In this document: positions 55,464 to 57,446 of the stretch, piece after piece
Layout of the letters: every line of letters starts with the position of its first letter
Numbering within the stretch: position 1 is the first letter of the stretch
Origin: Streptomyces antimicrobicus
Lineage (GTDB): Bacteria; Actinomycetota; Actinomycetes; Streptomycetales; Streptomycetaceae
Length of the DNA: 64,000 nt
Direction: 5' to 3'
NCBI RefSeq assembly: GCF_020532625.1
Contig: NZ_JAJAUY010000018.1
Span: forward strand, 1-64,000
Position numbers and translations under genes: made by a program
The notes under the pieces: model-generated
The model's database searches: none
The model's input: the letters and a program-made list of their open reading frames with translations, nothing else
What the model was told of the DNA's origin: nothing

Positions 55464-55567
55464 TCGGGCCCCGAAGAAATCGGATGGCGGCCCGGCCCCG
55501 GCGTTTCCTACAGTGATCCACGTCCGGGTGCGCGGCGGGGGGACTCCTTCCGACGGCACCCGGGCCT

Positions 55568-55653
55568 CACGCACTTCCCGGTGCGCCGGGCACGCGGCTC
55601 CTTCTTCCCAAGAAATCCTGCCGCCGCCCCTTCGATCTCGGGAAGCGCGCGTG
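55568..55653 (+). ncRNA. Candidate Y RNA without tRNA-like module
   Basis: By-eye fold: CACGC (55568-55572) pairs with GCGTG (55649-55653), CTTCCCGG (55574-55581) with TCGGGAAG (55638-55645, one G-U), GCGGC (55594-55598) with GCCGC (55620-55624), and an apical TTCTT (55602-55606) with AAGAA (55610-55614). It shares CCCGGTGCGC, GGCTCCTTC and CTTCGATCTCGGG in the same order with the YrlA candidate directly downstream, while the outer helix differs in sequence but keeps pairing. It is just upstream of the Ro60 gene. It overlaps the outermost stem of the second RNA by 14 nt, so boundaries are approximate. Confidence 0.6.
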
Positions 55654-55806
55654 GTGGGTGCCCGGTGCGCAGGCAGCGGCTCCTTCCGGATCCGGCGGTT
55701 GCGGGTTCGAATCCCGCCCGGCCTCGGCCGGTAGCTCAACCCGGTAGAGCGCCGGACGCAGTCCGCCGCCGACTTCGATCTCGGGCATCCTCCACGTCCG
55801 CTTCCC
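55640..55806 (+). ncRNA. yrlA: Y RNA of YrlA type with permuted tRNA-like module
   Basis: Long closing stem: GGGAAGCG (55640-55647) with CGCTTCCC (55799-55806), CGTGG (55650-55654) with CCACG (55792-55796), and 55656-55665 with 55781-55790 (10 bp including two G-U). Inner stem: GCGGC (55676-55680) with GCCGC (55765-55769). The tRNA-like module follows. TCCGGC (55691-55696) pairs with GCCGGA (55751-55756) as anticodon-like stem. A canonical T arm, GCGGGTTCGAATCCCGC, lies at 55701-55717, then a closed acceptor-like hairpin at 55718-55731. A canonical D arm, AGCTCAACCCGGTAGAGC, ends at 55750. The T arm precedes the D arm, a circular permutation as in bacterial YrlA RNAs, which lie beside rsr. 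A possible -10, TACAGT, is at 55509-55514. Confidence 0.85.
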
Positions 55807-55835
55807 CCGACACCCGTGAACCCGGGGGGATTCAC

Positions 55836-57446
55836 ATGGCTCGCTTCAACCTGCGCCTGCGCCGTACCCGTACCCGTACCGGCGAGCAGCCCGTCTCGCC
55901 CGTGCGGACCACCGGACGTACCGTCCGCACGCACCAGGGCGGCACCGGGCACCTGCGCGACGCGCGTTCCGAGCTCTACCTGCTCGCCGTCTCCCACTTC
56001 GTGACCCAGAAGACCTTCTACGAGGGCACCGGGCAGCGCGACGACCGGTTCACCGCGCTGGTCCGCACGCTCGCGGTCGAGGACCCGGGGTGGACGGCCG
56101 GCCTGCTGCGTTGGCTGCGTACGGACGCGCACATGCGGACCGCGTCGCTGGTAGGCGCCGCCGAGTACGTCATGGCACGGCTCGCGGCGGGCGCGACCGA
56201 CGGCCCGTCCAACCGGAGTGTCGTCGACTCCGTGCTCCAGCGCGCCGACGAGCCCGGCGAACTCCTCGGCTACTGGACGTCGGTGCACGGGCGGAACGTG
56301 CCCAAGCCCGTCAAGCGCGGAATCGCCGACGCGGTCCGGCGGCTGTACTCCGCGAACTCGCTGCTGAAGTACGACACCGCCTCCAAGGGATTCCGCTTCG
56401 GTGACGTGCTCACCCTGGTGCACGCCTCGCCCGACCCGGACAAGCCGTGGCAGGGCGAGCTGTTCCGGTACGCCCTGGACCGCCGGCACCACCCGGAGTC
56501 GGCGGTGCCGCCCGAGGACAGCCACGTCCTGCGCGCCCACCGGGCCCTGATGGGCCTTCCCGTGCCGGACCGCCGGGCCGTGGTCCTCGCGCCGGACGGC
56601 GCCGAGCGGCTGGCGCAGGCGGGCATGACCTGGGAGGCCCTGGCGGGTTGGGTGCAGGGGCCCATGGACGCGGCCGCCTGGGAAGCGGTCATCCCCTCGA
56701 TGGGCCCGATGGCGCTGCTGCGCAACCTGCGCAACTTCGACGAGGCCGGCGTCTCGGACGAGGTGGCGGCAGGGGTCGCGGCGCGGATCTCCGACCCGGA
56801 GGGCGTCGCCCGCTCCCGGCAGTTCCCCTTCCGCTACCTCGCCGCGTACCGGCACGCGCCGTCGCTGCGCTGGGCGTACCCGCTGGAGCGGGCGCTCGGC
56901 CACTCCCTGGCCCACGTACCGGCGCTGCCCGGCCGGACGCTGGTCCTGGTGGACCGGTCCGGGTCCATGTTCTGGTCCCGGATGTCCGACCGGTCCCGGC
57001 TCACCCGGGCCGACGCGGCGGCGGTCTTCGGAGCGGCGCTGGCGATGCGGGCCGAGCGGGCGGACCTGGTGGAGTTCGGCTCCACCAGCGCCGAAGTGCC
57101 GTATGCGGCGGGGGAGTCGGTGCTGAAGGTCCTGGACCGCTTCCACAACCTCGGCGGTACCGACACCACCGGGGCGGTACGGCAGCACTACCGCGGCCAC
57201 GACCGGGTCCTGATCGTCACCGACGAACAGGCGGCGCCCCACGCCCACGGCGACCCGACCGCGCAGGTGCCCGCCGAGATCCCGGTCTACACCTGGAACC
57301 TCGCCGGTCACCAGGTCGGGCACGGCCCCTCCGGCGCGGCCGGCCGGCACACCTTCGGCGGCCTCACCGACGGCTCGTTCCGCATGATCCCGCTGATCGA
57401 GTCCGGCCGCTCGGGCACCTGGCCCTGGCTGGGCCCACACCTCTGA
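55836..57446 (+). CDS. rsr: Ro60 orthologue, TROVE domain plus vWA domain (Rsr)
   Basis: 536 residues. After an Arg/Thr-rich start, the TROVE HEAT-repeat ring begins near residue 35 (LRDARSELYLLAVSHFVTQKTFYEG, LLRWLRTDAHMRTASLVGAAEY, VPKPVKRGIADAVRRLYSANSLLKYD). The C-terminal vWA domain has the MIDAS motif VDRSGSM near residue 372, with GTDTTGAV and VTDEQ. Ro60 proteins bind Y RNAs on the outer ring and misfolded RNA ends in the cavity. In Deinococcus, Rsr works with PNPase and YrlA-type Y RNA in RNA decay and stress survival. ATG 55836 follows GGGGGGA, which lies in the loop of a small GTGAA/TTCAC stem. Confidence 0.92.
   Translation: MARFNLRLRRTRTRTGEQPVSPVRTTGRTVRTHQGGTGHLRDARSELYLLAVSHFVTQKTFYEGTGQRDDRFTALVRTLAVEDPGWTAGLLRWLRTDAHMRTASLVGAAEYVMARLAAGATDGPSNRSVVDSVLQRADEPGELLGYWTSVHGRNVPKPVKRGIADAVRRLYSANSLLKYDTASKGFRFGDVLTLVHASPDPDKPWQGELFRYALDRRHHPESAVPPEDSHVLRAHRALMGLPVPDRRAVVLAPDGAERLAQAGMTWEALAGWVQGPMDAAAWEAVIPSMGPMALLRNLRNFDEAGVSDEVAAGVAARISDPEGVARSRQFPFRYLAAYRHAPSLRWAYPLERALGHSLAHVPALPGRTLVLVDRSGSMFWSRMSDRSRLTRADAAAVFGAALAMRAERADLVEFGSTSAEVPYAAGESVLKVLDRFHNLGGTDTTGAVRQHYRGHDRVLIVTDEQAAPHAHGDPTAQVPAEIPVYTWNLAGHQVGHGPSGAAGRHTFGGLTDGSFRMIPLIESGRSGTWPWLGPHL

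Follow-up and report, generated by a model that had tools for sequence, protein, structure and literature searches.

A tandem array of Y-like RNAs with different payloads on a common chassis, predicted to be co-transcribed with an rsr-like gene in Streptomyces

Introduction

In a 64 kb stretch of Streptomyces antimicrobicus DNA (contig NZ_JAJAUY010000018.1, positions 1 to 64,000; hereafter the window), a gene for an Rsr-like protein with a Ro60 fold, here called rsr, is preceded on the + strand by a tandem array of RNA elements that resemble bacterial Y RNAs. Ro60-type proteins in bacteria and phages, the Y RNA YrlA, the mimicry of a permuted tRNA and tandem Y RNAs in Salmonella are already known. 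To our knowledge, the reason for the tRNA likeness of bacterial Y RNAs is an open question.

The analysis suggests that the array is probably co-transcribed with rsr and encodes Y RNAs with a common stem, the likely site of Ro binding, which differ in what they display. At the level of sequence comparison, a common chassis, a fixed order, conservation by compensatory change, a tie to rsr and varied payloads in relatives are established.

Three RNA elements on one chassis in front of rsr

Three RNA elements lie in tandem within 320 bases upstream of rsr. Each is built on a chassis composed of an outer stem, a GGUGCG internal loop, an inner stem, the sequence NNCUUC, the payload and the sequence GAUCUC; in the first copy, a stub, the GAUCUC part is missing. 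The features are listed below, in which R1 denotes a covariance model of the plain RNA made from 36 training rows including the window's own copy.

55509..55514, + strand: TACAGT, similar to a -10 element, at which the array transcript is predicted to start
55522..55565, + strand: stub, first chassis copy with its tRNA-like payload probably lost, long hairpin (chassis motif at 55527; fold -33.9 kcal/mol)
55566..55653, + strand: plain Y-like RNA, no tRNA module (R1 75.3 bits; covariation)
55574-55581/55637-55645, + strand: outer stem of the plain RNA, with the inner stem near 55594-55598/55620-55624 and a short apical hairpin
55657..55792, + strand: YrlA-type RNA with a circularly permuted class I tRNA-like module (Rfam RF02553 match; covariation)
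55701..55717, + strand: T arm of the YrlA-type RNA, GCGGG TTCGAAT CCCGC
55719..55730, + strand: capped acceptor-like hairpin of the YrlA-type RNA
55734..55750, + strand: D arm of the YrlA-type RNA, GCTC..GAGC
55802..55830, + strand: predicted hairpin that takes up the G-run ahead of the rsr start codon by pairing 55802-55809 to 55823-55830
55836..57446, + strand: rsr, TROVE/Ro60-fold protein of 536 aa with DRSGS in the vWA part (Pfam, AlphaFold2, Foldseek)

The 5' chassis pattern (GGTGCG, 4-14 bases, GG, then [TC]NCTTC) has just three matches in the 64 kb of the window (55527, 55580 and 55664), each on the + strand, and was found 0 times in 1,218,086 background bases of related loci, both strands counted. 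A first-pass annotation, made from the letters of the window, had placed two RNA elements with common ordered sequence blocks in front of rsr. Both are present with the blocks as named, and its description of them as one plain RNA and one with a tRNA-like module is supported by comparison; the stub of a third element at 55522-55565 had escaped it.

The plain RNA is conserved and tied to rsr

Conservation was followed in the window plus the loci L002-L081, the best 80 of 174 relatives. R1 gives 75.3 bits at 55566-55653, the window copy being itself one of the 36 training rows. The plain RNA is of full length (R1 at least 68 bits) in 74 of the 81 loci, 32 of which are training rows, and is shortened to 44-49 nt (38-47 bits) in the remaining seven (L031, L037, L053, L069, L070, L078 and L080). 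Within an alignment of 36 sequences, 97.6% of the cells are paired compared to 34-59% with slid partners as control, and 20 cells are changed on both sides versus a shuffled mean of 5.0, a number reached in 0 of 500 shuffles. The count of further pair types in the same 36 sequences is no higher than in the shuffles. Among 295 genomes of the genus, 148 have a strong rsr match (E under 1e-90), and 141 of these contain the plain RNA; it is also seen in 3 of 16 genomes whose rsr match is weak and in 3 of 131 that lack one.

The YrlA-type RNA carries a permuted tRNA-like module

The YrlA covariance model of Rfam (RF02553), which the first-pass annotation had proposed for this region, aligns over its full length (model positions 1-114, window 55673-55775) with an E-value of 4.6e-14, though its score of 62.8 bits stays beneath the gathering cut-off of 69. 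All 12 YrlA matches in eight relatives are also below 69; at gathering scores Rfam reports no RNA match in the window, and the elements are under the cut-off in every locus scanned. Because the scores fall under the gathering cut-off, the RNA is called YrlA-type and not a member of RF02553. Its parts follow a permuted tRNA order, i.e., an entry stem of anticodon type, the T arm, a capped acceptor, the D arm and the entry stem again. In 36 sequences (window plus relatives), pairing is preserved by changes on both sides in 15 of the 38 predicted pairs; the evidence for the predicted tRNA-like fold is comparative. Compensatory changes are thus seen in relatives for both the plain and the YrlA-type RNA.

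A second covariance model, R2, made for permuted tRNA-like RNAs, places a YrlA-type RNA behind the plain RNA in 78 of the 81 loci including the window (33.8-78.5 bits, fixed place), the exceptions being L012, L051 and L072. As a side observation, L051, L072 (about 2821-2898) and L012, in which the YrlA-type RNA is missing or a short stub, are a mirror image of the window, where it is the payload of the first RNA that was probably lost. As a general detector R2 was rejected below about 80 bits, since tandem tRNA genes match it at about 51 bits: two tRNA-Asn genes in the window's own genome (G000:C73:3074-3205) reach 51.8 bits, the window's element 51.3. Because R2 matches tandem tRNAs, its matches in 152 of 345 genomes of the class are not counted as Y RNAs. 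ARAGORN found no tRNA. A donor tRNA of the window's module does not stand out, the alignment score being 0.76 of 1 at most with three tRNAs tied and no clear best.

The first RNA is a predicted cloverleaf with an anticodon arm

A further element precedes the plain RNA in 58 of the 81 loci (R2 at least 130 bits; 13 of the 58 are training rows), and 55 of the 80 relatives have the full set of three RNAs. Genome G012, which gives the window's array its best match (83% over 55567-55857), has an intact first RNA at the place of the stub. Since G012 carries all three RNAs, the sequences are most simply read as a loss of the first RNA's payload in the window's lineage. In the 22 named relatives without a first RNA no stub is apparent. 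Across the genus there are 99 unique upstream regions, of which 15 contain one match to the chassis pattern, 83 two and 1 three; the pattern misses the intact first RNA, whose spacing differs.

The anticodon arm of the first RNA was parsed in 70 of these 99 regions at constant offsets, with 5 bases of stem, 7 of loop and again 5 of stem. The stem forms each of its five pairs in 67 of the 70, with UUCCA/UGGGG, UUCCG/CGGGG and UUCGA/UCGGG as the main variants, and a variable loop of 5 bases is found in 69. The loop positions are those of an anticodon loop: C32 and U33 in 70 of 70 each, U36 in 68, A37 in 58 (C in the other 12) and A38 in 69. The triplet at the anticodon place is CAU in 35, GAU in 14, CUU in 9, GCU in 4, GUU in 3 and UCU in 2 cases; GAA, CGU and CUG, the last off register in L056, were seen once each. 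Together with its T arm, a capped 7-bp acceptor and a D arm, the first RNA is predicted from these sequences to be a complete cloverleaf opened between the D and anticodon stems, unlike YrlA, which is opened at the anticodon loop. The Rfam YrlA model matches the first RNA in seven of eight loci scanned (30.6-40.6 bits), and in four of these seven the match spans the T arm to the D arm only. Loop identity with host tRNAs was considered as a sign of descent: 7 of the 10 loops compared, out of 11 distinct first-RNA loops, are identical to loops of the window's genome. It was set aside as weak because few loops of the form CTNNTAA are possible.

Payloads have been switched among relatives

YrlA-type payloads were parsed in 76 of the 99 unique regions, the other 23 being unparsed or without the RNA. 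According to the D arm, 48 are of class I (the window included), 26 Leu-like and 2 initiator-like. A long insert with a hairpin directly ahead of the T arm, a trait of class II tRNAs, accompanies 17 of the 26 Leu-like payloads and 0 of the 50 others (Fisher p 8e-11, uncorrected for phylogeny). The D arm of L007 is identical to that of the tRNA-Leu(CAG) of the window's genome in 20 of 20 bases, and those of L089 and L103 score best against a Met(CAU) tRNA (0.95 and 0.90 of 1). This tRNA is presumably the initiator.

Mapped onto a tree of 99 Rsr proteins, with 76 rows scored, the payload type needs at least 15 changes, compared to a shuffled mean of 23.7. The payload type is also inherited, because 0 of 200 shuffles need as few. 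The well-supported branches alone force at least 6 changes for class I and at least 4 for Leu-like payloads, on a tree that was made by a quick method and in which L082 is a long branch. Part of the switching may be an exchange of whole arrays; in the pairs L014/L021 and L041/L007 the first RNA differs as well. The cleanest case is L018 versus L073, of which one has a class I and the other a Leu-like payload, only 60 of 99 positions being identical. Their surroundings agree in 144 of 150 upstream positions, 87 of 89 positions of the plain RNA with its spacer, 24 of 27 of the 5' chassis and 500 of 526 aligned residues of Rsr. From the 3' chassis up to the ATG the two also diverge (66 of 119), this stretch being 40 nt longer in L073.

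Arrays in other actinobacteria

R1 matches 28 of 345 genomes across the class, 11 of them outside the genus. In 16 stretches examined, ten of which are from other actinobacterial families, the chassis was counted five times each in G451 and G362, four times each in G392 and G552, three times each in G600 and G584, twice each in G534 and G345, once in G319 and 0 times in G568; the covariance models add one element in G534. An rsr homolog was found in 12 of the 12 genomes tested. In 11 of them (two Streptomyces) it is 55-63% identical and adjoins the array, the exception being G568, whose match is weak and lies on another contig. Six other actinobacterial genomes thus have three to five chassis elements adjoining an rsr homolog. 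By inspection, the array of G451 comprises a plain element, an element whose anticodon loop is Glu(CUC)-like, an unassigned element, a minihelix of T arm and acceptor, and an anticodon-bearing element that resembles the first RNA of Streptomyces.

A phylum-wide search with the chassis pattern matched 10 of 376 genomes (8 of 12 of the genus including the window, 2 of 364 others), the reversed control 11 of 376. It says little on the distribution, because the sample held none of the genomes with long arrays.

Within Streptomyces, two-element arrays were also seen before a divergent rsr in L240, L241 and L242 (genomes G055, G058 and G069). The divergent rsr is 56% identical in G055 and G058, and one element of L241 carries a minihelix payload of T arm and acceptor.

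Phage loci

Protein matches were obtained in 79 of 50,697 phage records, and four loci were read. In the Streptomyces phages GiJojo (L261) and BRock (L262), the Ro-like protein is 50-52% identical, and at least four elements with a variant chassis (GAUGCG, UUUCUAG) precede its gene in the order tRNA-like, two without a T arm, tRNA-like. The Gordonia phage VanLee (L263) has three elements, plain plus tRNA-like, adjoining the Ro-like gene, and Atuin (L264) one plain-like element before it and perhaps more behind. Annotated tRNA genes surround the Ro-like gene in GiJojo, BRock and Atuin. With only 18-22 bits in R1, the plain elements seen in GiJojo, BRock and VanLee were assigned by eye and folding and not by the model.

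Two annotated phage tRNAs appear, from their sequence, to be parts of Y-like RNAs, i.e., the tRNA-Arg(cct) of GiJojo (L261 1269-1343, PP725410.1 9796-9870) and the tRNA-Arg(tct) of VanLee (L263 1135-1206), the only tRNA annotated near the array of that phage, which overlaps an anticodon-bearing element with 77.1 bits in R2. On the chassis of both, a T arm, a capped acceptor and a D arm follow each other in permuted order, and the Rfam tRNA model has no match at either site. In BRock, a stretch of the same locus (L262 3579-3742) matches the manA RNA family just under its cut-off (49.7 versus 55.2 bits).

The protein behind the array

The first-pass annotation had described a full TROVE and vWA gene, and this was confirmed: the rsr frame runs from the ATG at 55836 to 57446, and its product shows both a Pfam TROVE match and a predicted Ro60 fold. 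The Pfam match (49.2 bits, cut-off 23) is limited to residues 278-337. Beyond these residues, the AlphaFold2 model (from 21 homologs; mean pLDDT, the model's own per-residue confidence, 84.8) predicts a Ro60-like fold along the chain, and Foldseek relates it to Ro60 (1yvp_A; E 2.2e-13, TM score 0.73), to the Ro60 of a Thermus phage (9l5y_A; E 1.2e-13) and to the Rsr of Deinococcus radiodurans (2nvo; E 1.1e-12). The DxSxS motif reads DRSGS, with D373, S375 and S377 invariant in the 21 homologs. The product is, according to the model, a Ro60-fold, Rsr-like protein outside the curated Rsr equivalog, and it is named Rsr-like rather than Rsr because it missed the NCBIfam cut-off given below.

Predicted signals for transcription and translation

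A TAnnnT motif is found 2-25 nt upstream of the first RNA of the array in 99 of 99 unique loci, compared to 81 of 1980 random placements within these upstream regions; the array starts with the first RNA in 72 of these loci (in the window with the stub) and with the plain RNA in 27. The G-run before the rsr start is predicted to be paired in 98 of the 99, in many cases by a hairpin with the C-run immediately before it; the partner varies (L002 and L008 differ), and the remaining locus is without a G-run. The modelled pairing is a possible translational control.

Proposed mechanism and alternative explanations

The RNAs adjoin rsr and have a long stem by which they could bind the Ro ring, as expected for bacterial Y RNAs. 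In the proposed mechanism, one promoter upstream of the first RNA would give rise to an array-rsr transcript, which would be cut into single Y RNAs. The shared stem would dock on the outer surface of the ring formed by Rsr, as Y RNAs do in their known complexes with Ro, and the tRNA-like payload would decide on the partner by tethering or decoying a tRNA-handling protein, which is PNPase in the known cases. The plain RNA would occupy or gate the ring without a tether, and the pairing over the rsr start region would tune the output of Rsr. The true anticodon loop of the first RNA would make the decoy idea more attractive than YrlA alone.

A wider reading, to which we give slightly less than an even chance, sees a rack of Y RNAs by a Ro60 ring in actinobacteria and phages, in which a handle is repeated two to five times and each copy carries a different tRNA impersonator. 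These are a complete permuted cloverleaf with a 7-base anticodon loop (mostly CAU, GAU and CUU), class I, Leu-like class II with a variable arm, initiator-like, a T-arm-and-acceptor minihelix and a blank. The payloads would have been swapped repeatedly and might be baits for enzymes that cut, modify or degrade tRNAs, handing these enzymes or their substrates to the ring; in phages the racks would lie inside tRNA clusters.

Several observations weigh against the proposal of co-transcribed Y RNAs. The Rsr-like protein reaches 21.5 bits with the NCBIfam Rsr equivalog NF041674, whose cut-off is 900, and the YrlA-type RNA stays below the Rfam gathering cut-off of 69. Its minimum-energy fold (-65.8 kcal/mol) contains the T arm and is otherwise not tRNA-like, the tRNA-like fold having -46.1 kcal/mol, so that the comparative fold is about 20 kcal/mol costlier. 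Single-sequence folding was dropped as proof, with z-scores of -1.93 for the plain and -1.43 for the YrlA-type RNA. In the plain RNA, 10 of 22 pairs never vary by one count, and 9 show no variation by standard pairs on both columns; such pairs are uninformative either way. The co-occurrence of plain RNA and rsr (Fisher p 1e-66) comes from a test that ignores phylogeny, and it has exceptions in both directions, as 7 of 148 strong-rsr genomes have no plain-RNA match and 6 of 147 others have one. The stub, which is without the GAUCUC side, may be dead.

It is unlikely, in our view, that only the YrlA-type element is a Y RNA and that the plain element and the stub form a cis leader by which Rsr represses its own message. 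Such a leader would be in keeping with the presence of the plain RNA in front of rsr in 81 of 81 loci, the seven shortened ones included, and with the predicted pairing of the G-run before the start codon in 98 of 99. However, the plain RNA has the same chassis as the YrlA-type RNA, plain-type elements come first in the arrays of G451, G362 and G392, where three or four others separate them from rsr, and they stand twice in the middle of the array in GiJojo and BRock.

Two further explanations are very improbable. The tRNA-like part might be a tRNA gene that has decayed or been rearranged, or two tRNAs in tandem, with no function as a Y RNA; such a pair likewise gives a T arm with a D arm behind it, and R2 scores the one on C73 with 51.8 and the window's element with 51.3 bits. 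ARAGORN, however, finds no tRNA, and two-sided changes in 36 sequences preserve the chassis and closing stems together with the capped acceptor and the permuted order. Equally remote is the idea that the shared blocks reflect an N-terminal extension of the rsr frame or an effect of GC-rich composition. The frame is indeed open from 55296 through the RNA region and the folding z-scores are weak, but the relatives align from the ATG at 55836, their payload lengths differ by non-multiples of three and the chassis pattern is absent from the 1,218,086 background bases. The co-transcribed array of Y RNAs remains the preferred reading.

Relation to known systems

In Salmonella, Rsr and YrlA bind PNPase (in the accessible part of PMC9879122), and in Deinococcus a Y RNA tethers Rsr to PNPase (in the accessible part of PMC7790460), whose authors suggested the tRNA-like domain of YrlA as a possible competitive inhibitor of an anticodon nuclease. 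The circular permutation of YrlA relative to tRNA is described in the available portion of PMC11472068, with a citation of 6CU1, the structure of a bacterial Y RNA. The YrlA-type RNA of the window has the part order of RF02553 and aligns in full length; it differs by its score (62.8 versus 69 bits) and by related Streptomyces payloads that are also Leu-like class II and initiator-like.

The first-pass annotation had taken tandem, structurally unequal Y RNAs to be less documented than a single YrlA. Y RNAs in tandem next to rsr have a precedent in Salmonella, which has two of these genes with rsr in the order rsr-yrlB-yrlA (PMC9879122 and PMC7790460, as far as their available text goes). According to the same excerpts, the Salmonella Y RNAs lie behind rsr and before rtcBA, whereas the Streptomyces array lies in front of rsr; moreover, the relatives of the window repeat one chassis with visibly different payloads, a comparison made without the YrlB fold. 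Deinococcus radiodurans shares the Ro60-type ring with a Y RNA tether (excerpts of PMC7790460 and PMC4726728) and the fold match to 2nvo; one Y RNA is described there, in contrast to several elements with varied payloads in Streptomyces. GiJojo and BRock share a TROVE/Ro60 protein and plain and tRNA-like elements before its gene, and differ in their variant chassis and in the location of the gene inside a tRNA cluster. The Ro60 of Thermus phage phiLo (9l5y) was compared by structure match and title only.

In the literature searched, we found no Streptomyces Y RNA arrays and no plain and tRNA-like RNAs on one chassis, nor any class II or anticodon-bearing payloads or payload switching; an earlier description of any of these may still exist. 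The elements have probably been overlooked, because they are under the Rfam cut-off and two of those in phages are annotated as tRNAs.

Variants with the same handle and a changed tRNA part (class I, class II, anticodon arm or none) are ready-made comparisons of payload versus recruited protein, including closely related species that differ most in the payload and the stretch behind it. Furthermore, the same mixture of elements by phage Ro genes hints at a role in the phage-host conflict over tRNAs.

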